Source: Cordia subcordata (taxonomy: Eukaryota; Streptophyta; Magnoliopsida; Boraginales; Cordiaceae). Taken from it: a stretch of DNA of 64,000 nt. The position numbers were made by a program, and so were the translations under genes. Shown piece by piece: positions 3,834 to 44,050 of this stretch. The notes beneath the pieces are model-generated. The model was given only the letters and a program-made list of their open reading frames with translations, was not told the DNA's origin and searched no databases. The DNA lies in contig JAPTOF010000024.1 in NCBI GenBank assembly GCA_028554755.1, positions 3,472,001 to 3,536,000 of the forward strand, read 5' to 3'. Within the stretch, counting starts at the first letter, position 1. The number at the start of each line of letters is the position of its first letter.

Positions 3834-4042
3834 CAGCCGGTCAACTTAGAAGAAAATCCGGTTGACCGGCTAAGTCGACCGGCCCCTCTAGCGAATAAAG
3901 AATTTAAGCTGGTCGAGTTCCTCAAGGAGCCAGTCGATCGACTAGGTCGACCGGCCATTCTTGAGAGCATCATGATTGAAGCCGGTCGAGCAAGAAAGAG
4001 GAGCCGGTCGACCGGCTGTGCACTGAAGAAATCCATAAAAAG
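3834..4042 (+). promoter_or_regulatory. GTCGACCGG cluster plus TATA-like box in LTR B
   Basis: Between 3834 and 4018 there are several full or near copies of the palindrome CCGGTCGACCGG and of TCGACCGGC. A TATA-like CATAAAAAG follows at 4034-4042. This matches the arrangement in LTR families A and E. A promoter role is inferred from position. Confidence 0.55.
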
Positions 4043-4544
4043 CTTGTTTCAGGTCATTTTCTAGGGAGGAACTTTTATTTCTTAAATCCTAAAAAAAACC
4101 CTAACCCTTTACCCACTTTACCAAATACCCTAAACCACCATCTAAACCCTATACCATGCTAGGATTGAAGCATTAAACAAAGATTTGAAGGATTTGTGCG
4201 GACTTGGAAGCAAGAATTTAGAGAAGTTCTTCTTGTTCTTTCTCTATTTCTTGCAAATATGTTGCTAGATTAGGCTAGATTTAGGATTGATTGTTGTTGT
4301 ATATTAGATTAGGGCTTTGAATAATGGATTTGTGTAAATCTTTGGCTCTTAATACATGTTTATTTACATAAATTTATGGCATGATTCAATATGTCTATGT
4401 ATTGGAAATCAAACATGTCTATGTGTTTGTCAAAATGCCTAAGTGAATATGCATGTGTTATTTGTGCTTCAAATGCTCTTATCTACTTATATGGGTGATG
4501 TGATTGTGCTTAATCTTATGGCGTTGCTTAGTAGAGTAGGCTTT

Positions 4545-4805
4545 AGCTTTAAATCTAGCTAATAGGTTACATGCTTTGCTTAGTCGAGTTTAGGTGCTAG
4601 TCATTGGCTTTAAATCCAGCCAAGCGAATAAGTTAACCTAAACTAGAGTATCCCTTACCCACGTTAGTGTTGGTTAATCGAGCCTTCATGTCACGTAGTG
4701 TTTAAGTGCTAGTCCTTGGCTTTAAATCCGGCCAAGAGGATAAGTTCTAATCACGGATTGCGTAGGCTATGGGGTATTGGCCCTTAACTTTAAATCCAGC
4801 TAACT
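4545..4805 (+). promoter_or_regulatory. Repeated TTTAAA-loop hairpins in LTR B
   Basis: Four units are spaced over 260 bases. The two best are TTGGCTTTAAATCCAGCCAA at 4604-4623 and CTTGGCTTTAAATCCGGCCA from 4715. Weaker forms lie at 4545 and 4785. The stems pair TTGGC with GCCAA. Confidence 0.5.
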
Positions 4806-5198
4806 GGTTAAATCACTAGTATTGGTTAAGAGAGCCCAATCAACATAACGGCAATAGAAGTCTCGAGCCTTAGATAGACCTCATCCATTATCATAGCCCA
4901 AGTCTTGTTGCAATGCAATCACCCTAAATCCCCTTCTTCTTTGTTAGTTCTTCCTTCCTTAGTTTGGCTCCTTTAAGTTCCTCTATAGATTAGTTTTTAT
5001 TTTCTTTTTATTTTCGAGCTCTTTTCCATCCTAAAGTAAGCATACACACGCACATAGCTAGTTTGAAGCATCCAAGCACATAGAGACTAAACTAAGGTAG
5101 CCTCCCTGTGGAGACGATAACCGCACTCGAATCCACTATACCACGAACGATCTGTACGCTTGCGGGTGTAAAACTCGATACGAATAGCACACACCACA

Positions 5199-5383
5199 AA
5201 CTAAGCTAATAAACAAAACAAACACAGGATAATAAGAAACTAAGGGAAAAGCAAGATAAAGAACTACTAAAACAAAATAAATAAGATGAGCAAGTAAAAC
5301 AAACAAAACAAGCAACTAACTAAAACACATAAGCAAAAAAGTCAAACCAACCATGCCTCCTTGACAACAGTGCTAGAACTTGG
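5199..5383 (-). other. PBS-proximal leader of gypsy element C
   Basis: On the minus strand this follows LTR C and resembles the leader of element D at 42085-42299. Both have a TTGTC(A/G)AGGAGGCA block next to the LTR end, then an A/T-rich stretch that reads as runs of AAACAAA on the plus strand. The rest of element C is left of the window, separated by the insertion of element B at about 5198. Confidence 0.6.
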
Positions 5384-5934
5384 TGCGATTTCAATAGACA
5401 AGCCTAAATAGCCCACAAGCACATGGGTCAAGTGTGGTATTGTGTGGGCAAATGTGTGGTCGAATCCACGAGGAGGCTAAATATGGAATGATCCTAAGAA
5501 ATTTATCCTAGAGAATTGCCTTAAAAAGAAAACCTAAGCTAACAATCTTTTTGGGAGTTTTTGGATAGAATGAAGCTCCAAGGGAAAGGAAATCTAGACT
5601 AAATTAAACTAAAGGGAAAAGGAAATGGAAAACGGGGGAAACAAGCTAACCTAGAAGGGAAACTAACAAATGGAAAGGGTTAGGGTGATTATCTCTTGAT
5701 TATGGATGACTTAGTACATTTTTGCTATGGGATTTAAGAGATGGTTTATCTATTAAGAGCCATTCTATACGAGGGTTCTAACTAGCCTCCTAAATAACCA
5801 CTAAAACTCGGTACAAGTTTGTCGTTAGGTGTTGGTGCCTTGAGTATGATGTGGTCCTTATGACCTAGGGCCTTAAGGTTGACTAATTAACATCTGATGT
5901 GACTTAGATTGAACCTACCCTAGTGCCTAAATTG

Positions 5935-6016
5935 TTGGCTGAGTTTAAAGCCAAGACCTAGTGCCATTAAGGTTGACTAATATTATTTGAAACCTATTGG
6001 CTGGGTTTAAAGCTAA
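5935..6016 (-). promoter_or_regulatory. Paired TTTAAA-loop hairpins in LTR C
   Basis: On the plus strand these read TTGGCTGAGTTTAAAGCCAA at 5935-5954 and TTGGCTGGGTTTAAAGCTAA at 5997-6016, spaced 62 bases as in family A. Confidence 0.5.
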
Positions 6017-6445
6017 AGGAGACTCGATCTAGGCTAGTCTTAAGTTAAGAGTCATCAATCTAATGTCACAATAGCGGGATTTTAACGATTAAGCACATTC
6101 ATACATGTTCTATAGTATGGCATTCGCGAATACATAGACATACTCAGCTACCAAACATCGTCATGCTTGGATTACACCATTTTAAGAATTAGAAACCAAT
6201 ATTTATGATATTAAAGTCATATTTACTGCTAAGACATGCAAATACACACATAAACATGCATATAAGCATTACCCACTTCATATAAACATCAAACAAATAC
6301 ATAAACATGCTCATATAATGGATTAGAAGTGATTAGTAGTAAATAGACGTCAATTTATATATATGCTACTTATTTAAGCATATTATCAGATACATGGACA
6401 TGTATTGAACAAATGCCATCAAAACCATGAAAATAAAGCATACAC

Positions 6446-6464
6446 AGACACACACACACATATA

Positions 6465-6501
<37 letters not shown>
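6446..6501. repeat. CA/TA microsatellite in LTR C
   Basis: A short (CA)n run at 6446-6460 passes into (TA)n up to 6501. Confidence 0.9.
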
Positions 6502-6505
<4 letters not shown>

Positions 6506-6843
6506 CGATCAAATCCCATAACAATCAAGTATTTAATCAATATAAGCTAAATTACCCTAAAGAGATCTATACATACATGATATAAAATAGGAGAAAAGGG
6601 AAATAGAAGAACTCCGCTTTCATCCTTGCAATCCTTCTACAAATCTTTGAGTAAATCCTTAATCCATAGTGTTTGAATCCTTCTAAGAGCTTGAATTCTA
6701 GTGTTTTTGTGTGTGGGTTAGTATGTGTGAGGTAAAGGAGTTAGGGTTTAGTGTATGTGAAAAATAGGTATGAAGAGTGTGTGTGAATTGATGATTAAAA
6801 TGCTGCTAAACTCGGGGTATTTGTAGCAGCTTTGCGGCGCTAC

Positions 6844-7010
6844 TGGTCGGTCGGTTCTTAAGGGGGATCGACTTGTAAAATACTCTGTTCTTTGGATCAA
6901 CCGATTGACCCTATCAATTAGCCCATTCATTCAACTGGTTCCAGCTGCCTTCTCTGGATCTACCAGTTGACCTAGCTGGTTGACCGGCTCCTTTCCTAGG
7001 TCGACCAAGG
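6844..7010 (-). promoter_or_regulatory. Decayed GTCGAC cluster in LTR C
   Basis: Degenerate copies of the palindrome are present (GGTCGGTCGG, GTTGACCGGC, GGTCGACC, GGATCAACCGATTGACC). Many CpG positions are changed to TpG or CpA. On the minus strand a TATA-like TACAAATACC lies just downstream near 6815. Confidence 0.45.
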
Positions 7011-7299
7011 CTTTAATCGTTTTCGTCTTCGCTTCTGACCTTCACCCCACGACCCGTACAGTTTAGTTCTTCATCAACCATCATCGTGCAAGCTCGTTCA
7101 TCAACCCAAGACTCATCTAAATAATCAAACTAGACATTTAGTGTTTATCCATAAAACTCAACTATATACAATTAGCTCACTTATGCACAGCTCTACCATA
7201 AGTACTACACTAATGCCATTACAAAAACACAAAGTACCTCAAAAACATATGGAAAATGCAATGCAAACACACACAAAACCAAGACACATCACTACACAT

Positions 7300-8370
7300 T
7301 CTTTAAAGAGCTACAAATTTTTGTTATGAGCTATAGATTTTTTTGTAAAAGACCTATAGATTTTTGTTAAGAACCTTCAGATTTTTGTAAGGAACTTACA
7401 GATTTATGCAAAGAAGCTACAGATATTTACTTTTCAGCCTACCAATTTTTCCTATGAAATTTTTTACATTTTTTATAAGCAAATTGGACTGTAAAAGTCA
7501 TTCATATTTTACTACCAATATTTAATTTAGAAGTATAATCTTTCGTAAAGAACCTACTAATTTTTATTAAGAACGTGCAGATTTTTGTAAAGAAACTACA
7601 TATATTTATTTCTCAACCTACAAATTTGTTCTATGAAATTTTCACATGTTTTTACAAGTAAATAGGATTGTAAAAGTCATTCATGTTTTACTATAAATAT
7701 TTAACTTAGAAGTACAATTTTCTATTAAAAAAAGCCTCCAAATTTTTGTTAAGAACCTACATATATTTATTTTTTGGCCTATAAATATTTTCTATTAAAT
7801 TTTTACATTTTTCACAAGTTTATAGGACTGTACAAGTCATTCATGTTTTACTATAAATATTTAATTTAGAAATACAATTTTTTGTTAAAAAACCTTCTGA
7901 TTTTTTTTTTTTTGTAGATATTACATAATTTTGTAAAGAAGTTACACATATTTATTTTTTAGCCTACAAATTTTTTATGATATTTTTACCTTTTTTTACA
8001 AGTAAATAGGATTGTAAAAGTCATTCATGTTTTACTATAAATATTTAATTAGAGGTACAATTTTTTGTATAAAAAAACCTAGAAATTTTTGCAAAGAACC
8101 TACATATTTTTGTTAAGAACTAATACAGTTTTGTAAAGGATCTACAAATTTTTGTTCTTCATTCTACAAATTTTTCCTATGAAATATTTATTTGCAAAAT
8201 CATTCATTTTTTACTACAAATATTTATTTTAGAAGAATAATTGTTTGTAAAGAAGCTATACATTTTTCTAAAGAACCTATAAATTTTTGTTTAAAAATAT
8301 AGATTTTTGTAAAAAACCTACATATTGTTGAAAACCTACACATTTTTGTGCTATCGTTAAAGAGCTCAGT
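7300..8370. repeat. Left AT-rich tandem array (unit about 165-185 bp)
   Basis: Five degenerate units share the core AAAAGTCATTCATGTTTTAC followed by TATAAATATTTAATTTAGAAG, at about 7495, 7672, 7835, 8014 and 8200. Within units, CTACAGATTTTTGTAAAGAA repeats on a scale of 20-30 bases and is nearly palindromic (TACAAATTTTTGTA). Confidence 0.75.
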
Positions 8371-8413
8371 TCTAGTTTTATTTGTAGTGGTATATTGATA
8401 ATTGCACAACATG

Positions 8414-8513: not shown

Positions 8514-8525
8514 TTGCACAACATG

Positions 8526-16293: not shown

Positions 16294-17663
16294 TGTTGGG
16301 GGCAAATATCTTAAGAGGGGTGAATTAATATATTAACCAATTTTTGCAATCAAATAACTCAATAAAAACAAGTAACTTCACTTAGACAATTTATCAAGCA
16401 AGTAATGCATACAGGTCAAACAAGAGCAGGGAGAAGAGAAAGAGAATAAAGAGGACCAACTTTTAGGTGGTTCGGCAAGCCTACATCCACTACCTAAGGA
16501 TGCTAGCCTTAGGACTTCAATACTCCACTAGTGTATGTGCTGCTTCAAGTGTTGGTGGGCACAAACTTGCTTTACACCTCTTTGAAGCCCAACTTCAAAG
16601 AACATAGCTTCACTCTTTAGGATTTCCCCACACTTACTCAAGATTAATAAATGTTTGTCTTAAGCAAATCTAGCTTCTAGAGTGTATTTACAATAATGAA
16701 TGATCGAATAAAGTGTATTTGTAAGCTCAACTTCTAATAAGTAGGTGTAGCAATGAATAGCTCTTGAATGCTCAAAGAATTTCATAGAATAGCTCAATCT
16801 CTCAATAATTTCTAAGCAATAAATGATATGAGAGAGTTTTGGCAAGCTTAGATAATGTAGTTTGAAAGATAGAAAAGTGTATTTATAGAAGGTGAGAGTG
16901 TTGAGACAATAGGTGTTGAAAAATAGGGTTAAAAATGAGTTGCAACGGCTCTTAATGATTACAGCATTTAATGCTACAGGGGAGGCTAGTCAACCAGCTT
17001 CCTCGTCGAAGCCACTGACCTACTTGGATCCCTAGGCCAGTTGACCGGCCAAGGGTCTGATTGGAAACCCTAACATTCTGAGGAGACCGATTGACCTCCG
17101 CAACCAACCGAGTGCCTAGCTTGGGGGTTTGGCCACTCCAAAATGCTTATAAAAAGCCACCAAACGTGTTTTAAAAGCTACCGACTTTGATTAAAAATAT
17201 TTAGCAAGTGAAGAACACATCAAAGAAGGCTTTCTATGACAATATAAGCTCAATGAACATGCTAACAAAGATTTTTGAAGAATTTAAAAGACTTTATGCA
17301 ATGAAAAGCATTTCTTCAAAGAATTATAATGCAAAAAACCTTTATGCAAGAGATGCAATGAAAAATCAATTTGATTGAGCAATAAAGGTGAACCTAAGGC
17401 TATTCACAAGAGAGTACTTAACCAGACCCCTTATGATGCCTCTTCTCTGTCTTATGACTCTACATCCTCTTCTTCTTTATACTTGAGCTCTTCTCTTCTT
17501 GGATTAGAATCTCTCTCAATTCGATCATGGCTCAAGTCCAATAATTCCAACAATTGCAAACACTTATCTTAAGAATATATTCAAGAAAAGCTCCTAAGAT
17601 GTTTAGTTCAAGGACATAATTTGCATCATCAAAATCATCATATAAAGCAATATTAAGCCAATA
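16294..17663 (-). mobile_element. Solo LTR family E (minus), TSD GAAAG
   Basis: The plus-strand left end reads TGTTGGGGGCAAATATCTTA and the right end aligns to the start of the plus-oriented copy at 25859, with shared TTGATTTTGATGATG. Flanking 5-bp repeats GAAAG at 16289-16293 and 17664-17668 are exact. The terminal G of one TG has mutated to A, giving TATTGGC. The LTR end TTCACCCC.CTCTTAAGATAT resembles copia LTR ends, so copia origin is suspected but no internal domain remains. Confidence 0.8.
16880..17111 (-). promoter_or_regulatory. Decayed GTCGAC cluster and TATA box in solo LTR E (minus)
   Basis: Copies such as TTGACCGGCC and CCGATTGACC lie at 16986-17111. On the minus strand TTCTATAAATA lies about 100 bases downstream at 16880-16890. 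The arrangement matches LTR A. Confidence 0.5.
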
Positions 17664-18479: not shown

Positions 18480-19290
18480 ACATATAAATATACATGTATA
18501 GGTTCTACATATTTTTTTTAGAAGTACATATTTTTCAAAAAAGAATCTACAAAATTTTGTATATAAACTACAGATTTTCGCAAAAATTGTACATATTTTT
18601 TTCAAATAATTTATAGACTTTTCTTCTCAATCTTACAAATTTTTTTGTGAACTTTAAACTTCTTTGACAATATATAACCAAATTAATTTATATTTTACTA
18701 TAAATATTTATTTTACAAGTATATATTTTTGTAAAGAACTTACAGATATTTGTTTTATAAATAACCTATAGATATTTGTAAAGAATCAATATTAAATTTT
18801 TTAAATAAACTGCACACTTTTTTTGACAAGTATACAAGGCAAAAAGTAATTTATGTTTTACAACAAATATTTCTTAAAGATTCTGCAGATTTTTATCAAG
18901 AACCTACAAAGTTTTGTCAAAACCCTATAGGTTTTTGTATAAAATCTACAGATTGTTGTTCTTGACCTTCCAAGTATTTTCCTATGAACTTTCCACATCT
19001 TATATAAATATATAGGACCGATCAAGAGTCATTTATTTTTTATCACAAATATTTTCTTTTACAATTACAAATTTTTGGAAAGAATGTACAAATTTTTGTT
19101 TTCAACCATTAATTTATATTTTACTATAAATATTTCTTCTATAAGTACATATTTTTACTAAGAATCTACAAATTTTTGTTCTACACCTTACAAATTTTTC
19201 CTACGAACTTTTGAAAAATATAATTTTATCTACAAATATTTTGCACATATTTACAAACTTTTCTAATATATTTTTCTTTTGCTAATCTCA
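18480..19290. repeat. Right AT-rich tandem array, same repeat as 7300-8370
   Basis: Four degenerate units have the core TTTATATTTTACTATAAATA and CTACAGATTTT/TTTTTGTAAAGAAC, at about 18685, 18850, 19025 and 19110. The orientation is the same as the left array, so the two arrays are direct, not inverted, although the short sub-repeat is nearly palindromic. Confidence 0.65.
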
Positions 19291-20180: not shown

Positions 20181-20720
20181 GCCAATGATGTGCCTTGAAG
20201 GTGCAAGCTCTAAAAGGTCCTGTAAGCATACGGACTGTGCACCATAAGGGGTATTATTATGGGTGTCAGACCACAGGGAGGCTCAAAGTGTAGCAAAATC
20301 CTAAGCTAGTGTGTCCTAGTAGAAGCTTGAAAAGATACCTAAACTAGTCATCGGTTTTTGAATTTTAGAAAGCTAACAGGGAAAGTAAAAGGCTACACTA
20401 TGAATGCAATAAAGGGAAAAGGTAAGAACTAAGCTAACCTAGGGGATTAAAACAATGGGGAAGTGATAGGGTGACCTACACTTGTGACTGGGGGATTTTC
20501 TACCTCTTTGCTATGAGATTCAGGGTTTTGGCTTACTAAACAGGGCTTTCAATACTAAGCAACTTACGAGTATCCTAATTACACCCTAGGACTTAGTGTG
20601 GATCCATCCCAATGCATGCACACTTAGCAGTATGGCGTGCTCCTTATATACCTAAGGCCATAATAGGGACCAGGGAGCTACTTAGGTGTCCTAAATCGAT
20701 CCTATCTTAGTTCCTAACTT

Positions 20721-20742
20721 ATTGGTTGGATTTAAAACCAAA
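20721..20742 (-). promoter_or_regulatory. TTTAAA-loop hairpin with changed stem (LTR D, left)
   Basis: ATTGGTTGGATTTAAAACCA followed by AA. The stem is TTGGTT/AACCAA where families A-C have TTGGCT/AGCCAA, a compensatory change. The same form occurs at 42842-42863. Confidence 0.5.
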
Positions 20743-21226
20743 ATCGAGGGTCACTAAGGCAGACTAACTCTACCTGGACTCTTACTAACTAGATTTAAAG
20801 ATAAAGGTTCTAGGCTAGGCTAATCTAGAATTGGGCTTCGCCAATCTAGGGACATAAAAGCTGATCTGGATTTGAACACCGCAATTTACATTTTTTAAGG
20901 CAAGTCGTTGTGATATGATGTCCTATCCACGATACAAACACAAGCAAGTTTGATTTATGCTATTAGAAACATCTGTGCATCAACATGTAGCAATATTTGA
21001 ACATGTATTCACTACAAGGCATGTTTCATACCTATATAGATGTGAATAGAACCAACCCACTTTTTATTATCCTTAATCACACACATAGACATTCATAATC
21101 TAAGGATTAGAAATGTTCTATAGCAAATATAACTCAATCTATATACATACAACTCATTCAAGCATTACATCACACATGGACATGAAATGATATAAAGCTT
21201 TTCAAAATAAGAACAAAGTATGTATA

Positions 21227-21307
21227 CATATATATATATATGTATATATGTATATATGTATATATATATATATATGTATATATGTATATATATATATATA
21301 TATATAT
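21227..21307. repeat. TA/TATG microsatellite in LTR D
   Basis: Alternating TA with interspersed TG over about 80 bases. Confidence 0.9.
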
Positions 21308-21670
21308 AAGCCAATGGAATCCCATAACAAGTTGTATGAAAATCAACCCATTACACAAGTTTAGACACCCCAAGTTATCTACTCAAGCATCAAATGAAAA
21401 GAGAATGAAAGAGGGTTGAGAAAGCTCCTCTTCCATCCTTGCTTGTTTCTTTACAATATTGAGCAAATCTTCACCAAATGATGTTGTAATCCTCCAAAAT
21501 CAACTTAGATCTAGGTAGGTATGTGTCTTAATATATGTATTAGAGGTGGGCAAAGGTAGGGTTTTGTGTGTGAGAAGTGGGTATGTGAGAAGCGAGATGA
21601 AAAAGGGTTCGAAATTTACTCAAAATGGGCTAGAAAAGTGCTTGAATACGGCTGATTTTGCGACAATCCG

Positions 21671-21793
21671 AAGGGCTCGGCCGGTCGATTGGTCTAGCAC
21701 CTAGGTTGATCGGCCTAAGGGCCTTACTTTCTATTTTGGCTGGTCAACCAAGCCGGTCGACCTGCCCTGGAAGGGGGGTCAACCAGCCAGGTC
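21671..21793 (-). promoter_or_regulatory. GTCGAC cluster in LTR D (left)
   Basis: GGCCGGTCGATTGG, AGCCGGTCGACCTG and GGGGTCAACCAGCC occur over 120 bases. CpG decay to TpG/CpA is obvious compared with LTR A or B. Confidence 0.5.
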
Positions 21794-22137
21794 AAAAACT
21801 TGGCCAATTTTCTCACGTTGCTTCTGTTTCATCCCAGTTGCACTTTTCTTCGCTTGATTGCCTCTAAAAGCCTCTTTTATGCTTCTCCCACGTCCAAACA
21901 CCTCGAGCTTGACTCCAACATCAAATCACCAAGTCTTGAGCTTTGACCTAACTTCACCAAACACAAGAAATAAGCATGTATTAGTGTAACATTTTTCTTT
22001 AAACTCAACTATGTACATTTGCATATGCTTACGCCTATCTCTAGCATATGTGCTATACTAATGCATCTCTTAAAGCTCAAAACACCTCTTAAATATAGAT
22101 AAATGACGATACAAACACACAAAAACACAACAATTCA

Positions 22138-22147
22138 ACACCCTCAA
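22138..22147 (-). promoter_or_regulatory. 3' half of gypsy D polypurine tract and copia TSD
   Basis: On the minus strand TTGAGGGTG precedes the 3' LTR start. The other half of the tract (GGTCTGAG) is at 32968 onward. The copia-like element split it, leaving CTCAA (22143-22147) and CTCAG (32968-32972) as an imperfect TSD. Confidence 0.65.
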
Positions 22148-25858: not shown

Positions 25859-27173
25859 TGTTAGCTAAATATTCATTATTGATTTTGATGATGAAAATAT
25901 ATATATATGCATTATTTGACTAAATAGCTTCTTGTGAAAATGAGATGACATTAATATGAAGCTTTGAAAGATATGAAGATGTGCAAAAAGCCTTATTTGA
26001 AGGGAGAAAAGATGAGAAGGCATAAGGAGGAGAAGAGAAACCATAAGGGGTACCGGATTTGTTTTTCTTCTTGCTCTTTTTGTGAAATGCCTATATATTG
26101 TGTGGACTTGACTCAAAATTTTTTCTTTGTCATAGCAAAAATTTTCAAGTCTTGCACATTTGAAAATAACATATGAACAAATGTATTTGAATGCACACAT
26201 TAAGATAAAATGAGTTTTTGGGGTGTTTCAATTCACAACATGTGTTTACATATTTGTTCAAAATGTCTTAGAGTTGTGAAAATACACTTAAATTGTTTTT
26301 CTACAAAATCTAGCTTTAGTTCACATTCTGGAGTGGCCGGACCCCCCAGCCGGTCGACCGGCTGACCTGGGTGGTCGTACGGCCTAAACAGAAAAGTGAA
26401 GGGAAAAGCCGGACCCCCTAGCCGGTCGACCGGCTTAGGCGTCCGGCCTAGTCAGAGAAGGAGAAGGGTAAGCCGGACGACCCAGCGGGTCGACCGGTTG
26501 AACGGGATCTGCAATAAATGCACTAGCCGTTTATTACCGTTCTGGCCAAAAAACTTAACCCTTCTTCACCTACCATATCCCTAACCCCCAAATCTCTTTA
26601 AATACTCATTCAATACACTTTCTAATCATAAAATTGAAGTGTGCTAAAGTGTTTATCATCATTCAATCCATCTTTGAGCCATTCTTGCAATATATTTGAG
26701 CTTTCAAGAGCTTATTCTTTTTCTTCTTGAAGAAAATCTCATATTCAATCTTTTCTCATTCTTAAGTACATACACACTTTGAGAGCCTTAATCTTTGTGA
26801 GATATATTCATTTAAGCTTGTAAAGTGTGAGGAAATCCTATGGAGTAAATCTCTTGGGTTCTTTGAAGTAAGACTTCAAAGAGGTTGTAAAGAACTTGGT
26901 TTGTGCTTCACCAAGTTTTAAAGAAGCATCTTAGTGGAGATCTTTGAAGTCCTAAGGGGAGATTCCTTGGGCGGTGGACGTAGGCTTGGCCGAACCACCT
27001 TAAAATCGTTTGTTTCTCTTCTCCTTACATTTCTATTTTTATTCTTCTTACCTTGTTTATCTTGTGTTTGATATATTGTTTGTTAGAAGTTGTAAATTTT
27101 CTGTAAATTTCAAAAATAAAAATTAATATTAATATCTTAATTCACCCCCCCTCTTAAGATATTTGCACCTACA
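25859..27173 (+). mobile_element. Solo LTR family E (plus), nested in copia-like element
   Basis: It starts TGTTAGCTAAATATTC and ends ...ATATTTGCACCTACA, 1315 bases. It is flanked by ATATT (25854-25858) and ATATA (27174-27178), a TSD with one mismatch. It is the same family as the minus copy at 16294-17663. The end resembles copia LTRs. No internal sequence remains, so recombination between LTRs is inferred. Confidence 0.75.
26334..26605 (+). promoter_or_regulatory. GTCGACCGG cluster and TATA-like box in solo LTR E (plus)
   Basis: AGCCGGTCGACCGGCT occurs at about 26348 and again near 26420, with CCGGACGACCC and GGGTCGACCGGTT near 26475-26500. A TATA-like CTTTAAATAC follows at about 26596. 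The GAGTGGCCGG lead-in (from about 26331) is shared with family A (GGAGTGGCGG near 41176). Confidence 0.55.
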
Positions 27174-29039
27174 ATATATGCACTTCATGCAACAACCACT
27201 TGCCATTTTTAGTCTCTCGAGATATAATAACACTAGACTTTAAAAACTCTTCTTCTTCTAGTGTTTGGACATTTAAAGAGATACTGCGTGTAAACCAATT
27301 GTTACTACTGGTGGGATTCTAAACCTCATTTAGTAATTAATGGATGAATCACCTCCTATTGAAATATTGTTTTCTCTTGAATCTAGTTATCTTGCTAGAA
27401 GATCCCTAGCAGCTCAAAGGGTCCATTATAGTCAACAATTGACTTGCCATGTCTTGAACCAATTCAAGAAAGGAAGCGATTATTGAGGGGTGAGAATAAT
27501 ATACCTAATTATCTTCTTGAAGGAAGTAATCAAATGATATTTGCTTCTCTACCTTTTTCTATCTTGTATAGTACGTAGACAATCTATCCTTCAAGTAAGT
27601 GTCAAAGACAGTATATTAGATCTTTGTGTCCCTCTATGTCATCAAATGTATAGAAAGACTCATCTAACCTTTGAATATAGATCCATAAGTTAGCATACGC
27701 ACTATCCGCCACGAAGACAAACTTTCAATGCAGACCGTTGCATCTCATCAGCTAATTGATGATCATCCCGACACTTTATAGCTAATTGGTCTTACTTATG
27801 CCAAGTTTGTATAGAACATACAGAATGCATTTATGATCGTGACTAACTATATCACTATCAAATAGTAATATATCTATAACATATTGAGATTTATGAAAGC
27901 AAATAACAAACACAACTAATGTAGACAAGCCATTATATATGAATTATCATTCCTAGAGACATGGGCCAATGTCTAAAGAATTCTCCCACTATTTTATTTA
28001 GACTAATAGCCTCTACCTTCAATCCGAGGAGATTTCCAAATCCAAATCCCTTAGTGGGTACTGAGATCCAAAATAGTTGAACATAAGCTCGACTAAGGTC
28101 AGCCCAGCTATGAACACTACTTGGTAGGTTCATAACCAATTGCTTCTCCAAACAACTCTCAGTAGTCAATTATGCCCCAAGCATCTCTTTAGCAAGACTG
28201 AGGTCCTCCACTGAAAAGCTTAGCTAGGTCAAACCATTAACATGAAATCCCAAGGTCTTCCTCTAAGCCTAATGAACAAGCCCGACTGAGGTCGGCCCAC
28301 CTATTCATTAGTCTGAAAGGATTCCAAGGGCTTCATATAGTGAATAATAATCCCAATATTTTAATAAAAACCAGGCCTAAGGGCCTCCAGCATTTATTAG
28401 AACATAGGGCCCATTATTATCTACTTTAATGGGAGGCAATTATTTGAGCACGTCCATGTTCAAACCACTTAATGGGCCTAATAATTTGAAGGATTTTATA
28501 TAGATGATAAGCGCATTGGTTATAATAGCCAAATTCCTTTAATTAATCCAATTAATTTACCATAATTGGCATACAAAACAATATATGACTATATATATAA
28601 GCACATGTGGGTGGTTACGAGCTTTTCCTAGTGTAGCCCACTAGAGCCACTATGGGCCACTCTATCTGCAATTAAGGATATTATCAGTTATTGTTGAGAA
28701 ACATGGAATAGGCCGGGTCTTCTAGTCCTTAGTCTTCTTCATCTTGTCTTGATCGCACTTCAACTACTAATTACATTAACTAGAAGTAGAACTCCTTTTC
28801 AAGGAGGGGATACATCACTTGGGAGATGGGATTACAACTAGAATTCAAGAGAAGGCTAAGCTCGCTGGCCCAATTTTAATTCCAAAAACAATTACAATAA
28901 TTGATAAATAAACAAGTAATAAGATGCATGAAATGCAAGCCCATAACCACACCAATATATGACATACATCATAAAAGACATGAATAAAGTAGCTTCATGA
29001 TTTTATCACACAATCATTAGGTGGATTTAATTGTATTAA

Positions 29040-29520
29040 ATCAACCTCTCTAATTAATTAAAACTCCGTTTAAATTAATTGGGGTCAAAATCTCCATTTT
29101 GATAAGTTAGGGAATTTCCAATTAATTAAATACTCATTTTAAATTACTTGGAGTCAAAACCTAATTTTGACTAGCCATTGAATGTTGTTCAATTAATTAA
29201 AAACTTTTTTTCTAATTAATTAGGGTCAAAATCACTATTTTGACCAATTATGGGACTAATCTATTTAATTAAAATTCTTTTTAAATTAATTGAGGTCAAA
29301 ATCATAATTTTAACTTATTAATGAGCCTCTGCCAATTAATTAAAACTTCTTTTAAATTAATTGGGGTCAAAATCTAATTTTGACTTGCTTTAAGACATAA
29401 TTCAATTAATTAAAAACTCCTTTCTAATTAATTGTAGTCAAAATCAGTATTCTAACAAATTAAGGTCTTTGTCCAATTATTTAAAAAAAAAATTTTAAAC
29501 TAATTGGATTAAAAAAAATA
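29040..29520. repeat. Tandem array, unit about 70-75 bp
   Basis: About six degenerate units have the pattern CCAATTAATTAAAACT, TTTTAAATTAATTGGGGTC and AAAATC..TTTTGAC. The half-unit CCAATTAATT / AATTAATTGG is itself an inverted repeat, so each unit could form a hairpin. Confidence 0.75.
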
Positions 29521-30974
29521 ACAAATTATAGGCTTCAACATAAATATCTTATATTTATCTACCAAAATTAATATTATCAAATAAAACAACTCATAGGGTT
29601 TTTGAATTAAATTTGGACCCAATTTAATTTTAATTGGTCATGACCAATTGAGTGAAATTCTAAAGTCCAATCTATTTGTAAAAGTTCATTTAATAAATAG
29701 ATACAACACTTGTACATTTATACAAGTCTAGTCCACATCCAAATAAAAAAAAAATTACTTAGGACAAAATGAGTTTAAAACTCATTATAAAATCTATAAA
29801 CAAAAGCAAAGCCCAAAGCCAATAAAGATTTAGCCCAACATTGAACATATATATATATATATTCCAAGATTTAAGCAACTTAAATCCGTCCTTTATAACA
29901 AAAGCAACTCAAGACAAGAATAAGAGAGAACTAAGAAGTAAACCATTACTGGATCTGGATCCAAACTATTTGGAACTAATTCTTATTCAGGTTGTTTGGG
30001 TCAAACCCAATCCATTAAATTTATTAAGTTAATCAAATCAACTTAATATAATAGTCTTTCAATATAGTGCCCAAAAAAGAATATGCTCAATAAACCCAAA
30101 AACTAAGTTTAGCCCAACCACAATTTAAATAAGACACATCTTATCCAACATGCCCAAATCTTCAATGATAAGTATGAAATGGGTCAAACCCATGACAAAA
30201 AGAAATCAGGTCGGGTCTTACCCAATCCAAAAGAAAACCCTAATGTCTTTCTCCTACTCGGCGCCGGCACACACCACTGAGACACTAACGACGGCCAAAA
30301 TAGTTGACCACCGGAGTCTACACATCATAGTAGTTGTCTAATCTAACACCCTCATCAAAAGACCACTGCTGCAAACCATCTTTGCGGCAGGATATGCAAC
30401 GACCATCGACGCAAGACCAACTCTCTTTGACAACCACTCGACATTGCAGCTCATTACACTGGAAATTGTGGTTCAATATAAGTTAATGCTAAGCACCAAG
30501 CCATCACCATGACCAAGGCCTCAACACCATCTACCTTATCATTGCCATCAACATGGCAACCTTGTTTGAGCACCTCTATAGCGCCGACATTCAACAATTC
30601 ACAAAATAATAAGATGTCTCGCAACACCTAAGCCAATACGCAACGCCATCTGCACCAACTCATAAAGCCATGGCGTTTGGCCATAATCCACCTTCTTTGA
30701 CGACGTGGTGCCTCATCAATGAACCTGCCTTGTCCAGCAGGTCTTTTAGTGCCATTCTTTCCCGCTAAAGCTCCATCGTCAACGGCCGTGGGGGACTGCC
30801 TTGTCTCGCTCATAATTCTGATACTTGCCAAACCACAACCATTATAGCTCGGAGAGTACGGTAGGTTCAAGTTAACGTGTAACCTAAGAAGACAACTATT
30901 ATTTATTTATTTATTTATTTTTACTTAATATCGAAACAAACCTATTATAAAATATCTGTTTCAGATAGCTTTCA

Positions 30975-31075
30975 TGAATCAGAAGATGTCTTAGTGGTCA
31001 AGATCCTTGCTAGATTTGCCAAAGTTGCAAAAGTTGCAAGTTCAAATCTTTGTGGACTCCTTTTTTTTTTCCTTC
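30975..31075 (+). mobile_element. Possible tRNA-derived SINE remnant
   Basis: TTAGTGGTCAAGATCCTTGC resembles an A-box region and AAGTTCAAATCT a B box, followed by a T-run of 10 or more. No clear TSD was found, so the call is tentative. Confidence 0.4.
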
Positions 31076-31398
31076 AATAGAGTAACTATGTATGGCAGAC
31101 CCCATTAATGGCGTAATAACTATGTCTCGTATGTCATAAACACGAAAATTAATTTTGACACAGTAACTCCTTTCTTGGGCATATCAATTGCAATCTAATT
31201 ACACACTAGAATAGGGCAAATCAGTTGCAACCATCTTGCAACTTAGGGCACAACAAATAGTAATCTTATTACAATTAAAACCACACACTAATTCACAATT
31301 AAAGTGCACAAGATAAAAATAATGTATATGGACATATCACATACACATACATATATAAACGAGCGACAAAATCATAAAATTACGTGAAAAAGAGCTTT

Positions 31399-31411
31399 GG
31401 CTCTGATACCA
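31399..31411 (-). promoter_or_regulatory. tRNA-Met primer-binding site of copia-like element
   Basis: The minus strand reads TGGTATCAGAGCC, one base after the LTR end. It matches the 3' end complement of plant initiator tRNA-Met. Confidence 0.9.
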
Positions 31412-31412
31412 C

Positions 31413-32967
31413 TAAAGGAAATCGTGGAGACTTTCCTTGGATTTCCACGTACAAGATCAAGTTCTAGAATTTAAAATTTTAGAGATTAAAAGCATTGTCT
31501 TGCGGAAGCATTGAGCTCCTCCTCTATATACGCGATCAAGGACTAGTGGGAGGAGGCGAACTTTTGGTTAATACGCGATCAAGAACTAATGGGAGGAGGC
31601 GAACTTTTGGTTAGGGTTTGGGAGAGAGTTCTCTATCTCAGATTTTCACAAAAACATACGTACAAGAAATAATAAGAACCATCCTTATATAGGGAGATAT
31701 GGGATTTTGATTAAGCCCATCCCTACAACCCAATAAGCCAAACTCTTTGGGCTTAGATTAATGGACTTCCTAAATCCATAATAAAGCTGAAATTAAATCC
31801 ATATTTAATTTATAAACAATAGCCCATGAATTGATTTTGATCCACATATCCAGTGCTAGCTAGACATCGTCAAAATCAATTCCGTTACCTATAATAAGTA
31901 ATTATAATATTTAATTCTCAATTAAATATGTATAATATTAATTACTTATAGTATTATTCAATTCATAATTAAATAATAACACATTTAATTCATAATTAAA
32001 CGTGACCAAAATTGTCATAGTAGGGTCAATCCTCCAACTAGTTCCCGACCATATGCGTGACTCTGTAGGTTCAAATTTAAACCGGTAATATAAGAACTAT
32101 TCTTATATTAATAGATGATACCGTCTAGCAATGGTCCCCGACGTCCAGAGAAGCTGAATAGTTACAAGGCAATATTCAACGAACTTGGGTACTATGGTGG
32201 ATTCCCTATGACCCTCGATATTCCGAAATAACCCTAAGGGCATGGTAAAACTGTCAAACCCCTATTTAGATATTCCATGTTAAGTCCCAATCTCGTCATA
32301 ACTTATCATGACGTAACCACATGACACATAATGAGGAAAGCTTTGGCCAAAGTCTTAATAAATTAGGACAAAGCAGAATATCATTCTCCTAATACCCAGA
32401 GATGTCAATCCCATCTTGACCTACGTATTGACTTCGCGGCACTTGCCTACACCTAGTAGCCTTTGGTCACCGAATTAGAAATCCAAATAGTCCAGTACCA
32501 AAACATGGGGAGTAATCCATAAGTCTCTATGGCGGTCTCAGGTCTAAGGGAATACGACCTCCATGTGCACCACAAGCAATTCTTTGACAGTAAGGTACAT
32601 ACCATAGGATGCTTGTAATAGAGTCATGTTCAGCGAGCATATCTCCACACCTCACAGTGGGTTACACCGGTGTCTCCACACCCTTTGGTCATGAGGATAA
32701 CCAACTCATGTGACGCACTGTAACCTATGCTCGATAGAATTGATGTCCTAGTATCAATTCTATCATTTGGTTATGAACTAGGTTTAAGGACGACTGAGCT
32801 ATCCCTCATTCACATAGCCCTACTAGGTCATCCTAAGGACTACGCCATGATCTAACAATTGAGGAGAAGATATACGATATGACGTAAGGCCGAAAGTACG
32901 ATGATTAATGTACAAATCAATACAAAATCTACAATAGACGACTGACTTTAGGACACCATTCCTAACA
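31413..32967 (-). repeat. 5' LTR of copia-like element
   Basis: 1555 bases. Relative to the other LTR it carries a local tandem duplication at about 31528-31612 (ACGCGATCAAG.. to ..GGCGAACTTTTGGTTA twice). Confidence 0.9.
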
Positions 32968-34690: not shown

Positions 34691-34699
34691 CTTGATTGC

Positions 34700-35400
34700 C
34701 TAATAAGCCCTATGCTCAAGTTCTACTGGTAAAAGACAAGCTTTACCATAAACCACTTTATACGAAGACATACCAATGGGAGTCTTAAAGGTGGTACGGT
34801 AAGCCCACAAAGCATCATTCAACCTAATAGACCAATCTCTCTTATCAAGCCTAACCATTTTCTCCAAGATATGCTTAATCCCCTTATTGGACACCTCTAC
34901 TTGTTCACTAGTTTGCGGGTGATAAGGAGTAGTAACCTTATGGGTAACCAAATATCTCCTTAACAAGGCCCCTAATGTCCTATAGTGGAAATGCAAACCA
35001 CCATAACTAATCAAGACCTTAGGGACTCCAAATCTAGAGAAAAAGTTCTCCTTAATGAGCTTCACCACTACTCTATGGTCATTAATACGAGTGGGGATAG
35101 CCTCAACCCATTTGGACACATAGTCTATGGCAACTAAAATGTATTAGTACCCAAAGAAAGGTGGAAATAAACCTATGAAATCTATACCCTAAACATCAAA
35201 TAGGTCACATGGTAGAATAAGGGATAAAGGCATCATGTTTCTCCTAGAGATGGACTCGGATTGTTGACATCTAACACGCTGTTTATAATACTCTTGGGCA
35301 TCTCTAAAGAGAGTGGGCCAAAACAATCCATATTGTAAGACCTTCGCGACTGTCTTCTTTCCACTTAAATGCCCTCAACACCCCTCAACATGGCACATAC
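34700..35400 (-). pseudogene. Gypsy D integrase, catalytic Asp lost
   Basis: The uninterrupted part (35119-34700) reads [30 protein letters not shown] and [15 protein letters not shown], then [14 protein letters not shown] and [13 protein letters not shown]. That is the integrase core and C-terminal region of Athila/Tat-type elements. The second catalytic Asp of the usual ISDGG block reads Tyr here (ISYGG), which should abolish activity. The Glu in VEVSN is present. Upstream of 35119 the frame has stops but retains GIDFIGLFPPFFG with the first Asp and a decayed zinc region near 35250-35380. Confidence 0.85.
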
Positions 35401-35491
35401 TCAACATGCTCTCGAACTAGTCGTCGGGCACACACAAGCGAATCATTTGATTTTCACACACCTTGAAAAGATAGGGATCCTTTTAAAAGAA

Positions 35492-35494
<3 letters not shown>

Positions 35495-35541
<47 letters not shown>
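35495..35541. repeat. (CT)n microsatellite
   Basis: About 23 uninterrupted CT units at the 3' edge of the RNase H remnant. Confidence 0.95.
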
Positions 35542-35544
<3 letters not shown>

Positions 35545-35963
35545 CAAAGGGAAAAAAATGCCTAGTGGCTACATAATTGACAATATAAGCAAACCATGGT
35601 GTATGATGAGAGATGGAAAACAATTGTTCATCAGGAAAGGAATCACAAAAAGGTAAAGGGTCACTAGAAGACTCATTAACAAGACAGGAAAGGTGATCTA
35701 CTACCAAATTCTCGCTACCCTTCTTGTCTCGAACCTCAATGTCAAACTCTTGAAGAAGGAGCAAGCACCTAATCAAGTGAGGCTTAGACTCTTTTTTAGC
35801 TAACAAATATGTCAATGCCACTTGATCCGTGTAGACAATCACTTTGGACCTTAGTATGTACGACCTAAACTTGTCAAGAGGGAAAACAATAGTTAGAAGC
35901 TCTTTTTCCGTGGTTGTGTGGTTCTTTTGGGCCTCATCAAGAATCTTACTAGCATAGTACACT

Positions 35964-36139
35964 AAATAGGGCATCATATCATGCCTTTGACCTAAAACAA
36001 CTCCTATCACATAGTCAGATGCATCACACATAACCTTGAATGGGAGACTACAAATAGGGCATCCTATCATGTCGTTGACCTAAAATAACTCCTATCGCAT
36101 AGTCAGATGCATCACACATAACCTTGAATGGGAGACTAT
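35964..36139. repeat. 88-bp tandem duplication in RNase H region
   Basis: Two adjacent copies start AAATAGGGCATC and end ATGGGAGACTA(C/T), with a few differences between copies. Confidence 0.85.
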
Positions 36140-39754: not shown

Positions 39755-40300
39755 CCTATTGATGTCTTCTTACGAGTGCAAGTTTTAAAAGACCCGCAAG
39801 CGTACGGATTGTGCAATACAGTGTTTACGAGTGCGGGTGTCAAACCACAGGGAGGCGTGAATATCGTGAATGTATCCTATGCTTGGTGTCCTAAAAGAGC
39901 TAAAAAGAAAGATCTAAACTAAGTGTACTTTTTCTTGTGAAGGTTTGGATTGTCGGGAGCTCTAAGTAAATGAAAGAAAACTAAACTATGAATAAAAACA
40001 AAAGGGACGCAGGTTGATTAAGAAGAAACTAACAATTGGAAAGGGTTTAGGGTGACTTGGACTTATGAATGGGTAACTCCATACTCAAATGCTATGGGAT
40101 TAAGGGATGATGGCTAACTATCAAAAGTGCTCTTAACTAGGTTGTTAGTTAGTGTCCTGATTTCCCCTAGGACTCGGTGCGGGTCCGTCCCTAGGCGACG
40201 TCTCCTAGAGCTACGGCGTGGTCCTTATGACCTAGGGCCTCAAGAAGGACTAACTAACTTCCTAGGTGGCTTAGAATGAACCTACCCTAGTACCTAAACC

Positions 40301-40383
40301 GTTGGCTGGGTTTAAAGCCAAGACCTATGTTGCTAAGGTCGACTAAATATATCCTGAAACCTATTGGCTGGATTTAAAGCCAA
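40301..40383 (-). promoter_or_regulatory. Paired TTTAAA-loop hairpins in solo LTR A
   Basis: GTTGGCTGGGTTTAAAGCCA at 40301 and ATTGGCTGGATTTAAAGCCA at 40363, spaced 62 bases, with perfect TTGGCT/AGCCAA stems. Confidence 0.55.
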
Positions 40384-41030
40384 AGGAAACTTGACCTAAA
40401 TTAGCCCTAAATTATACTCCGTCATTCTAAGATCACTACGGTAGGATTTGACTAACATTCATACACATGTGATATTGAAATTATGGTGGTTACTAGGCAT
40501 GCAAATACGCATATAGACATGAATAAAAGCACTACCCACTTCATAACATCCATGTATAAACACATAGACATGAGTACAGCATGGATTAGATGTGTTTAGT
40601 AACAAACAAACTTCAATTAATATATATGTACTCATCTAAGTATTCTATCAAACACATAGACATGAATGAAAGAACACATAATTAAACAAAACAAATCAAA
40701 ACATATATATATATACTCAGCCATCATATCCCATATCATAAGAGTATAAAATTAACCCATTATATAAGTTTAATCACCCTATACAAGCTACTCAGACATA
40801 ATAGAAAATAGAATGAAAGAGATATAATGAAACTCCCCTTTCATCCTAGCGATTTTAGAACACAGCTTGTAAACAATCTCGATTCCAAAGCGTTTGAATC
40901 CTCCAACGGCTTGGTTCTTCGTGAAAAGTATGTGAAAAGGGTGTGTGGCGGCTAGGGAATAGGGTTAAGTGTGTGTGAGAATAGGTGTGAAGTGTGTGTA
41001 AAAACTCTCCTTTTTGCTCGCGTCGGGCTT

Positions 41031-41229
41031 TATTTATAGATTCGCGCATGGCCGGTCGGCCGTCTAGGTCGGCCGCCTCTGAGTACTCGACCGGCTTTCT
41101 TCAAGGGCTCTGGGTGGCGGTCGACCTAGCCGATCGGCCGGCTCTTGAAGAAGTCGTCCGGCTTTTTGACGGTTCTGGAGTGGCGGTCGACCTAGTCGGT
41201 CGACGCAATTCTTCCTTAGCGTCCGGCTG
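41031..41229 (-). promoter_or_regulatory. GTCGAC/CGGCCG cluster with TATA box in LTR A
   Basis: GGCCGGTCGGCCG, CGACCGGC, GCGGTCGACCTAGC and GGTCGACGC occur at 41049-41229. On the minus strand the TATA box TCTATAAATA at 41031-41040 follows directly. This is the least decayed copy and best shows the cluster/TATA spacing. Confidence 0.6.
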
Positions 41230-41530
41230 ACTTCCTTCATTCAATTTTTCGTCATTTCGGCCTTTAGTCTTCTCCCTTAGACCCGTGCATGTCCTATCTT
41301 CGTCACCTTTCATTGTTCAATCTTTATCTTAACCCAAAGTCACCTGAATCATTGAAAATAAGCTATTAGTGTAGCATTTTATCTCTTAAACTCAATATGC
41401 ACATTTATTCACACTTAAGCCTATTCCTATCAAAAGTACTACACTAATGCATCATTATAAGCATTCAACACCTCTAAAGTATAAGTAAATGGCGATGCAA
41501 ACACACACCAAATCACAACTCATCACCTAT

Positions 41531-42080: not shown

Positions 42081-42299
42081 ACTAGAAATAAAAAGCGAAA
42101 ACAAAATAAGATAACAAGCAAACTATGCTAAGCAAGAAAAGTAAACACAAAAAGATCAAAGAAACTAAACACAAAACAAAATAAATAACTACTAAAGCAA
42201 GCTAATAGAACAAAACAAAACAAACAAAAGAGCAACTACTAAAACACACAAGCAAAGAACAGAAACCACTGTGCCTCCTCGACAATGGTTCCAAGAATT
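42081..42299 (-). promoter_or_regulatory. PBS and leader of gypsy element D
   Basis: Directly after the LTR end (minus ...GACACATCA) comes AATTCTTGGAACCATTGTCG then AGGAGGC, the family's PBS-proximal block, also seen in element C and, degenerate, in element F. Which tRNA is the primer is not clear from the decayed sequence. Confidence 0.6.
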
Positions 42300-42841
42300 T
42301 GATGTGTCTTGAAGGTCCAAACCCTCAAAGGTCCCACAAGCATACGGATCGTGCACTATAGGGGATACCATTGCAGGTGTCGAACCACAGGAAGGCTCAA
42401 AGTGTAGTAAAATGCTAAGCTAGTGCATTCTTGTAGAAGCTTGAAAAGAAACCTAAACTAATCATCTTTTTGGGTTTTTTGGATTTTAGGGAGCTAACAG
42501 GGATAGTAAAAGGCTATGCTATGAATGCAATAAAGAGAAAAGGAAAGAAATAAGCTAACCTAGGGGATTAAAACAATGGGTAAGTGATAGGGTGACCTAC
42601 ATTTGTGAATGAGGGCTTTTTTACCTCTTTGCTGTAGGATTTAGGGTATTGGCTTACTAAACGAGGCTTTTAATATTAAGAAACTAACGAGTATCCTAAT
42701 TACATCCTAGAACTCGGCACAGGTCCATCCCTAAGCATGCACACTTAGTAGTATGGCATGGTCCTTATGTACCTAAGGCCATAGGAGGGACTACGGAGCT
42801 ACATAGGTGTCTTAAATCGATCCTATCCTAGTTCCTAAATT

Positions 42842-42863
42842 ATTGGTTGGATTTAAAACCAAA
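42842..42863 (-). promoter_or_regulatory. TTTAAA-loop hairpin with changed stem (LTR D, right)
   Basis: ATTGGTTGGATTTAAAACCA followed by AA, identical to the left LTR, with the compensated TTGGTT/AACCAA stem. Confidence 0.5.
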
Positions 42864-43691
42864 ATCGAGGGTCACTAAGGCTAACCAACCCCACCCAGAC
42901 TCCTATTAGTTGGATATAAAGCTAAAGGTTCTAGCCTAGGCTAATCTAGAATTGGGTTTTGTCGATCTAGGGACACAAAAGTAGATCTGGATCTTAACAG
43001 CACAATCTATATATTCTAAGGCAAGGTGTTGTGAATATGACATCCTATCCACGATACAAACACAAGCAAGTTTGATTTACACAATTAGAAACATTTAAGC
43101 ATCAACATGTAGCAATATTTGAGCATGTATTCACTATAATATATGTTTTATACCCACAAAGACATGAATAGAACCAACCCACTTCATATTATCTATAATC
43201 ACACACATTGACATGCATAATCTAAGGATTAGAAGTGTTTGGTAGCAAATATAACTCAATCTATATACAAACAACTCATTCAAGCATTACAGCAAACACA
43301 TGGACATGAAATGATATAAAGCTTTTCAAATTAAGAACAAAGTATGTATATATAAGCCAATGGAATCGCATAACAAGGAGTATGAAAAATCAACCCATTG
43401 CACAAGTTTAGGCACCTTAAGTTTTCTACTCAAGCAACAAATGAAAAGAGAATGAAAGAGGGTTGAGAAAGCTCCCCTTTCATCTTTGTTTGTTTCTCTA
43501 CAATCTTGAGCTAATCTTCACTAACTAATGTTGTAATCCCCCAAAATCAACGTAGATCTAGGTGGGTGGGTGTGTTAATGTATGTATTGGAGGTGGGTGA
43601 AGGTAGGGTTTTGTGTGTGAGAAGTGGGTGTGTGAATGGGAGGTGAAAAAGGATTCAAAATCTATTCAAAATGGGCTGGAAAAGTGCTTAA

Positions 43692-43918
43692 GGGCCCATT
43701 TGGATTGGGTTTTTTCAAAAGTGCTTTTCTAACAGCTTTTAAAAAATAACTTTTTTTGAAAGGCTAAAAATTCTAGCTTCTAAAAAAAACTGTGTTTGAG
43801 CTTTATTCAAAGTTTCAGCTTTTTTGAAAGTTAAATCAAATAGTTATTTCAAATTTAATGAAACTTTTTCAGGAAAAAAATATTTTTCCTAAAAAAAAAA
43901 GTCAATCCAAACAGGCCC
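43692..43918. mobile_element. Harbinger/Tourist-like MITE, TSD TAA
   Basis: 227 bases with terminal inverted repeats: left GGGCCCATTTGGATTGGG, and the right end read on minus GGGCCTGTTTGGATTGAC. TAA flanks both sides (43689-43691, 43919-43921). The empty site is visible in the other LTR of element D (about 21637). TIR style and 3-bp TSD fit PIF/Harbinger MITEs. No coding capacity. Confidence 0.9.
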
Positions 43919-43949
43919 TAAATGCAGCTAATTTCGCAACAAGCCAAGG

Positions 43950-44050
43950 GCCTTGGCCGATCGATCGACCTAGTACCAAGGCCAATCAGCCTACGGGCCT
44001 CACTTTCTATTTTGGCTGGTCAAGCAGGAAAAGGGGGTCGACTAGCCAAG
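43950..44050 (-). promoter_or_regulatory. GTCGAC cluster in LTR D (right)
   Basis: GGCCGATCGATCGACC and GGGGTCGACTAGCC occur over 100 bases. Decayed relative to families A and B. Confidence 0.45.

Follow-up and report, generated by a model that had tools for sequence, protein, structure and literature searches.

The window analysed here is a 64,000-nucleotide stretch of contig JAPTOF010000024.1 of Cordia subcordata, part of a 472-Mb genome in 62 contigs. It contains long terminal repeats (LTRs) of several retrotransposon families, and seven of the LTRs carry a block of palindromes built on the dyad CCGGTCGACCGG. These blocks had been proposed in an earlier reading of the sequence (the original prediction), and palindromes were found at all seven places. 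As judged from the LTR sequences, the blocks lie in the unique 3′ (U3) region, ahead of a TATA-like box, and the LTRs that carry them are assigned to two superfamilies: the Sirevirus lineage of Ty1/copia (family E) and Tat/Athila-like Ty3/gypsy (families A, B, C and D, and F elsewhere in the genome). The family letters were assigned in this analysis and need not match those of the original prediction. The features are as follows (PBS, primer binding site).

3569..5166, plus strand: LTR of family A, with a purine tract just upstream; 91% identity over 1,600 bp to the A copy at C1:6390k
3834..4018, plus strand: palindrome block, family A
4033..4042, plus strand: TATA-like box CCATAAAAAG, family A, offset 19 from the last core
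5405..7272, minus strand: LTR of family B (ends approximate), with homology to the D LTRs
6844..7010, minus strand: decayed palindrome block, family B
6816..6826, minus strand: TATA-like box CTACAAATACC, family B
39760..41526, minus strand: LTR of family C, within the internal part of element D
41049..41229, minus strand: palindrome block, family C
41030..41039, minus strand: TATA-like box CTATAAATAA, family C, about 10 bp after the block
About 1-1128, plus strand: second, partial C LTR
42304..44398, minus strand: 5′ LTR of element D (copy D2, approximate ends); a decayed PBS-like TTCTTGGAACCATTGTCGAGGAGGCA comes after it
43950..44050, minus strand: decayed palindrome block, D2
20186..22125, minus strand: probable 3′ LTR of element D, copy D1 (ends approximate), about 80% identical to D2
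21671..21793, minus strand: decayed palindrome block, D1
34700..36079, minus strand: Ty3-type pol remnants between the D LTRs (RT_RNaseH at 35483-36079, then integrase core at 34700-35143)
25859..27168, plus strand: Sirevirus (Ty1/copia) LTR, family E; 84% identity over 1,323 bp to the solo E LTR in locus L003
26334..26506, plus strand: palindrome block, family E, made up of three units in tandem at spacings of 72 and 64 bp
26596..26605, plus strand: TATA-like box CTTTAAATAC, family E, about 100 bp after the last main core
16298..17600, minus strand: older E-type LTR (5′ end uncertain), 63% identical to E over 889 bp, with a C-rich stretch near its 3′ end
16986..17111, minus strand: strongly decayed palindrome block, older E-type LTR
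16879..16888, minus strand: TATA-like box CTATAAATAC, older E-type LTR

The proposal that copia-type and gypsy-type LTRs have in common a promoter-proximal module next to a TATA-like box is supported: such a box was seen downstream, on the sense strand of the LTR, for the blocks starting at 3834, 6844, 41049, 16986 and 26334. The block at 21671 has just a weak candidate, CGTATTCAAG.

With up to three mismatches allowed, CCGGTCGACCGG has 23 matches in the window, 22 of them inside the seven blocks, which make up 1,056 of the 64,000 bases (a match starting at most 15 bases before a block was counted as inside); the sole other match is at position 22857. At one mismatch or fewer, six matches were found versus 0.02 expected, and exact GTCGAC occurs 15 times versus 2.2 expected. 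Among the 16 self-complementary words of the form CCGG-N4-CCGG, CCGGTCGACCGG is the commonest in the window (13 matches at up to two mismatches and 23 at up to three; 7 and 16 for the runner-up). Genome-wide, the exact 12-mer occurs 5,941 times (forward count) versus 3 for the reversed control, the 16-mer AGCCGGTCGACCGGCT 3,230 times versus 0, and the general form CCGGNNNNCCGG (CCGG-N4-CCGG) 9,002 times versus 2,447, so that a single centre of 256 makes up 66% of all CCGG-N4-CCGG sites. The next commonest centre among the matches listed was TCAA/TTGA (5 places), the expected product of C-to-T decay of TCGA. These counts rule out chance or base composition as the source of the blocks.

Carriers and their classification

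The carriers were surveyed in 32 clusters that are consecutive on contig C1, between 0.76 and 16.28 Mb. Twenty are Sirevirus-type: 18 lie in family E LTRs (three of these just about 75% like the window copy) and two upstream of open reading frames (ORFs) of the post-pol type. The motif is not restricted to Sireviruses, since 11 of the 32 clusters lie in Ty3-type LTRs (seven of family A, three of family F and one F/A chimera). The remaining, unclassified cluster (L025:1267) is a single ACCGGTCGACCGGT outside recognised LTRs, by eye beside a gene-like stretch, and is possibly a host site.

Family E bears copia-type pol and three published Sirevirus hallmarks, on which we assign it to the Sireviruses. 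The pol region between two E LTRs in locus L020 is of the copia type (PF07727 RVT_2, 1.1e-84; gag_pre-integrs, 4.3e-14; rve, 6e-14). The junction between 5′ LTR and PBS, CA/ATTGG-TATCAGAGC in Sireviruses, reads CACCCACA/ATTGATATCAGAGC, one base off, in one element; the polypurine tract (PPT) with the AT/TG attachment site, also from one element, reads AGGGGGAG-AT/TG at the LTR start, and an extra PPT copy (a further GGGGGAG) lies upstream. The C-rich integrase signal is present as TTCACCCCCC...CTTAAGATATTTGCACCCACA, about 20-25 bp before the LTR end, and the array of CGG-CCG dyads occupies the upper half of the LTR, upstream of the TATA-like box.

Families A, B, C, D and F are classified as Ty3/gypsy-type and Tat/Athila-like. 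The Ty3-type order of pol domains (RT-RNaseH before integrase) was found for element D alone, and A, B, C and F were placed by LTR homology. In element D, RT_RNaseH matched PF17917 (4.5e-27) and PF17919 (4e-19), and the integrase core matched PF00665 at 3.6e-6, with 27.6 bits, under the Pfam cut-off of 32.6; the two D blocks probably belong to the two LTRs of this one element. The Tat/Athila-type PBS is TGGCGCCGTTGCCGGGGA, and family A matches it with TTTTTGGCGCCGTTACCGGGGAGGCA in locus L043 and TTTTTGGCGCCGTTGCCAAGGAGGCA in L044. Decayed Tat/Athila-like sites follow D2 and, by eye, the B LTR, and none was seen for C and F. A family A query gave 1,860 first-look candidates, 40 of which were scored, and four listed pairs are 5.2-5.3 kb apart. 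Full A elements elsewhere in the genome measure about 6.9 kb; two of them have LTRs 98% alike around a short internal part, which starts with a PBS, TTTTTGGCGCCGTT, and ends in a purine tract. The two larger ORFs tested there gave no pol match, and A is a non-autonomous family. Family F includes a solo LTR with the target-site repeat GCTAG (by eye).

The original prediction suggested that the block had been gained or kept independently by the families, and named as a refutation an alignment showing its inheritance with the rest of the LTR. Such homology was found outside the block: B and D2 are 63% identical over 1,426 bp (E-value 1e-99), A and C match over positions 1-893 (2e-31) and F and B at 3e-96; the direct match of A to D is weak. 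Since homology among the A-D and F LTRs, pairwise or via an intermediate, extends past the block, the block was inherited with the LTR in the Ty3-type group, and independent gain among A-D is not borne out. Promoter parts have also been swapped within this group near the border of U3 and R (the repeat region), as indicated by locus L027 (LTR on the minus strand), a chimeric solo LTR with the target-site repeat TGTAT. Its U3 is of the F type through block and TATA-like box (best match 78%), and its R-U5 is of the A type from just after the box (best match 92%); the junction and the target repeat were recognised by eye.

Two further features lie within or between the D LTRs. A MITE (miniature inverted-repeat transposable element)-like insert with the ends GGGCCCATTTGGATTGG...CCAATCCAAACAGGCCC lies at about 43690-43920, in the D 5′ LTR between the block and the promoter side, and is absent from the other D LTR. 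A further element (22145-32967), situated between the D LTRs and itself containing the E LTR, has two 1.55-kb LTRs that are 88.6% alike; they carry no palindrome block, just the weak match at 22857, and make a useful negative control.

Array geometry and variation

The unit of the arrays is the dyad AGCCGGTCGACCGGCT, repeated mostly at 57-74 bp; in A and F it is often accompanied by a second dyad or half-site 13 bp on. The distance from the last core to the TATA-like box is 19 in seven of nine A-type copies (the chimera L027 being one of the nine) and 20 or 32 bp in three F copies. For family E we used a sample drawn independently of the core, with a U3 query lacking the block (1,467 first-look candidates, 40 scored, 30 fetched). 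The offset was 91-100 in 21 of these 30 copies and 146-155 in the other nine, in which the third core was not recognised at up to two mismatches. In 15 core-selected E copies, it was 99-101 in eight and 161, 159, 105 and 92/122 in four, and no box was found in three. Core-independent sampling with U3 queries recovered at least one exact core in 24 of 30 E copies and in 8 of 8 A copies.

Unit number differs within presumed LTR pairs, with indel ends inside the cores, and the TATA spacing stays constant. This was seen in L001/L002 (97% alike), L041/L042 (98% alike) and L081/L082 (paired by spacing only). Outside the block, the members of seven E LTR pairs, again matched up by spacing, are 0.5-1.5% different, which corresponds to an age of about 0.2-0.6 million years if 1.3e-8 per site and year is assumed; one further E pair is 97.1% identical, block included.

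The motif recurs away from the LTR promoters. In locus L032 (1150-1400, minus strand) a cluster lies upstream of reading frames that share 66-77% identity with the ORF following pol in the E element. In L039 (2900-3050, minus strand) ACCGGTCGACCGGT stands 16 bp before ATATATAG and about 200 bp before reading frames, one of which has a weak likeness to the E post-pol ORF (31% over 94 amino acids). Matches to Transposase_32 were below the Pfam cut-off in both (1e-6 in L032 and 4e-5 in L039). With the palindromes upstream of post-pol-type frames, and a TATA-like box in L039, the arrangement resembles an internal promoter.

A putative host-factor site and the alternatives

The reading that we favour, and consider reasonably probable, is that the blocks are promoter-proximal arrays that two superfamilies use and that a single dimeric host factor binds. 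The U3 control region of these LTR promoters would consist of arrays of the dyad CCGGTCGACCGG and half-sites, most likely bound by a dimeric, sequence-specific host transcription factor. The bound factor would activate the TATA box some 10-110 bp downstream, and the same site would serve the Sirevirus lineage E and the Tat/Athila-like families A, B, C, D and F. Several results argue for such a factor: one exact sequence, with 5,941 copies and 66% of all CCGG-N4-CCGG sites, is found in both superfamilies, the geometry relative to TATA is fixed despite varying array length, the motif recurs upstream of post-pol-type frames (in L032 and, more weakly, L039), exact cores are still retained in E and A under core-independent sampling, and the chimera L027 carries block and TATA-like box jointly. 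As to its identity, LBD/LOB-domain proteins were considered as binders; among the matches listed in literature searches there was nothing usable, and no claim is made for them. A published Sirevirus precedent (PMC2829016; see below) also favours the model.

Other observations weigh against this reading. The core columns are no more conserved than the rest of the LTR: non-CpG nucleotide diversity (pi) is 0.149 in the cores versus 0.098 in 15 core-selected E copies, 0.081 versus 0.055 in eight core-selected A copies, and 0.199 versus 0.0215 in the 30 core-independent E copies, a roughly ninefold difference. Moreover, five blocks are predicted to fold, as RNA, into strong hairpins (z-scores of -3 to -11 versus base-shuffled sequence). 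Conservation of the core as a proof of function was thus tested, and was found in neither the core-selected nor the core-independent sets.

Note that the core changes in E look scrambled: they comprise small deletions and changes of GTCGAC to GTCGGC or GCCGAC, and they cluster by copy (L045-L074). Near CCG sites just downstream of the cores, 5.5% of cells are substituted, compared with 1.0% in the remainder of the LTR. Within the internal part ahead of the PPT (46 columns, 10 copies), positions near CCG have no excess of substitutions (0.9% versus 1.2%) and an excess of gaps (10.9% versus 2.2%). The A pair L079/L080 differs almost entirely by changes of the scrambled-core type. The likelier cause is an error of base calling or assembly where CCGG sites are methylated and form hairpins, true hypermutability being possible, and part of the core variation in the core-independent E sample may be assembly error.

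The strong predicted hairpins suggest an alternative in which the palindromes matter as structure, in RNA packaging or dimerisation or as hairpins cut to small RNAs by the host; palindrome regions of maize Sirevirus LTRs are described as small-RNA hotspots (PMC5311732 and PMC10760457, citing Bousios 2016). This we regard as rather unlikely, because structure alone would need no single sequence, whereas two unrelated superfamilies have one exact sequence, beyond mere symmetry; the fixed position relative to TATA and the joint presence of block and box in the chimera also speak against it. The differing unit numbers of paired LTRs and the indel ends within cores would in turn be explained if the blocks were functionless palindromic direct repeats, varying by slippage or strand transfer, and if the Ty3-type copies stemmed from recombination with a Sirevirus. 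A cross-superfamily acquisition of an LTR motif has indeed been proposed in wheat, for RLG_Quinta from RLC_Gisela (PMC11302176). The constant TATA spacing and the recurrence upstream of post-pol-type frames make such selfish amplification improbable, as do the presence of the block (partly decayed) in five Ty3-type families whose LTRs are 30-40% different and the lack of any spacer sequence clearly common to the E blocks and the Ty3-type blocks.

It is very improbable, finally, that the CG- and CHG-rich palindromes are kept by host silencing, as methylation targets or borders of CpG islands. All seven blocks are CpG-richer than the window, with observed/expected ratios of 1.17-1.23 (blocks 3834 and 41049), 0.97 (26334) and 0.56-0.66 (the other four) versus 0.44, and the motif clusters of Sireviruses are reported to define predicted CpG islands (PMC2829016). 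CpG diversity in the core-selected A set is 0.055 in the cores versus 0.189 outside the block; in the core-selected E set the values are 0.129 and 0.168. By contrast, CpG retention in the core-independent E copies is about the same in the cores (92%, 231 of 250 cells) as outside the block (90%, 269 of 298), with no sign of special protection or decay. A protection of core CpG sites, hinted at by the A set and not by the core-independent E set, is therefore not claimed.

Inheritance of the block within the Ty3-type group leaves only the sharing between copia and gypsy to be explained. Masked alignments of 15 block pairs, in both orientations, gave no consistent signal outside cores and half-sites; the lowest p values for copia-Ty3 pairs were 0.010-0.025, uncorrected, and power was low, as the homologous A-C pair failed too. 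A lead-in, TTCTGGAGTGGC, had been reported as shared by two families. Both block 41049 and block 26334 have it, though their LTRs carry it in opposite orientations; in a weak shared-word test its p value of 0.007 was the lowest of 10 comparisons, which does not place the sharing clearly above chance. An exact 28-mer, GCCGGACGACCAAGCCGGTCGACCGGCT, is common in the sense orientation to 10 E loci, an F LTR (L040) and the chimera L027; it consists of a core and a half-site, and hence does not decide between exchange and convergence. No copia-gypsy chimera was seen among the loci read. Convergence may have given the Ty3-type group this site, as may the exchange of a piece of less than about 30 bp with a Sirevirus.

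Relation to known palindrome arrays

Motifs of this class, placed upstream of TATA, have already been described in Sireviruses: Bousios et al. (2010, PMC2829016) report arrays of CGG-CCG palindromes, with a Vitis version, CGGTCGACCG, that is contained in the present core. As in that description, there are many CGG...CCG dyads, which start 200-400 bp into the LTR, the TATA box lies near mid-LTR, and extra copies occur upstream of the ENV-like gene (compare L032 and L039). Family E has about three full cores plus half-sites per LTR, and the Vitis element has 10. The motif is called Sirevirus-specific there and was absent from the classic copia elements compared, a comparison that apparently did not include Ty3/gypsy elements; the identical motif is here also found in Ty3/gypsy-type LTRs. 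Section 19 of that paper could identify no common binding site for a single factor and left function and partner open in 2010. Among the matches listed in full-text literature searches (subscription papers being outside their scope), none reported Ty3/gypsy LTRs with this motif, and its occurrence as an identical dyad at the corresponding position in Ty3/gypsy-type LTRs of one and the same genome looks new.

In the LTR of the copia element Tnt1, as in the present arrays, tandem repeats and an activator box with symmetry precede TATA, but its U3 boxes differ from them in sequence and lineage. Box I of Tnt1 is mentioned in section 19 of PMC2829016. Maize Sireviruses likewise have, in the control region of the LTR, an array of palindromes that varies rapidly (Bousios 2016, cited in PMC5311732 and PMC10760457), and Helitrons have the same maize palindrome as their most frequent structured motif (5,231 regions, 10.7%; PMC10760457). 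Sharing of a palindrome across element classes has thus been seen before, with a different palindrome: the maize core is CACCGGACNNNGTCCGGTG, and the second carrier is a class of DNA transposons and not Ty3/gypsy LTRs. In einkorn wheat, gypsy and copia LTRs (RLG_Quinta and RLC_Gisela) share a segment near the predicted TATA, read as an acquisition (PMC11302176); that segment is an alignable 162-bp motif tied to CENH3 nucleosomes, whereas only short dyads are shared here.

That a second superfamily in this genome carries the identical dyad, and carries it where the first does in the promoter, suggests that a host factor recognises the sequence, and the two superfamilies provide two independent sets of natural LTR variants with which the binding question becomes testable. 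Extending the host-factor reading, we tentatively suggest that one host protein might select one palindrome version per plant lineage, on which unrelated LTR elements would have converged or which they would have swapped. If so, the CGG-CCG version carried by an element would report the host factor and not the ancestry of the element. The finding bears on the spread of promoters among retrotransposons.

Elsewhere in the window, two AT-rich stretches (7310-8350 and 18505-19240) consist of degenerate repeats with a period of about 180 bp and units like CTACAGATTTTTGTAAAGAAC, and are similar to each other.

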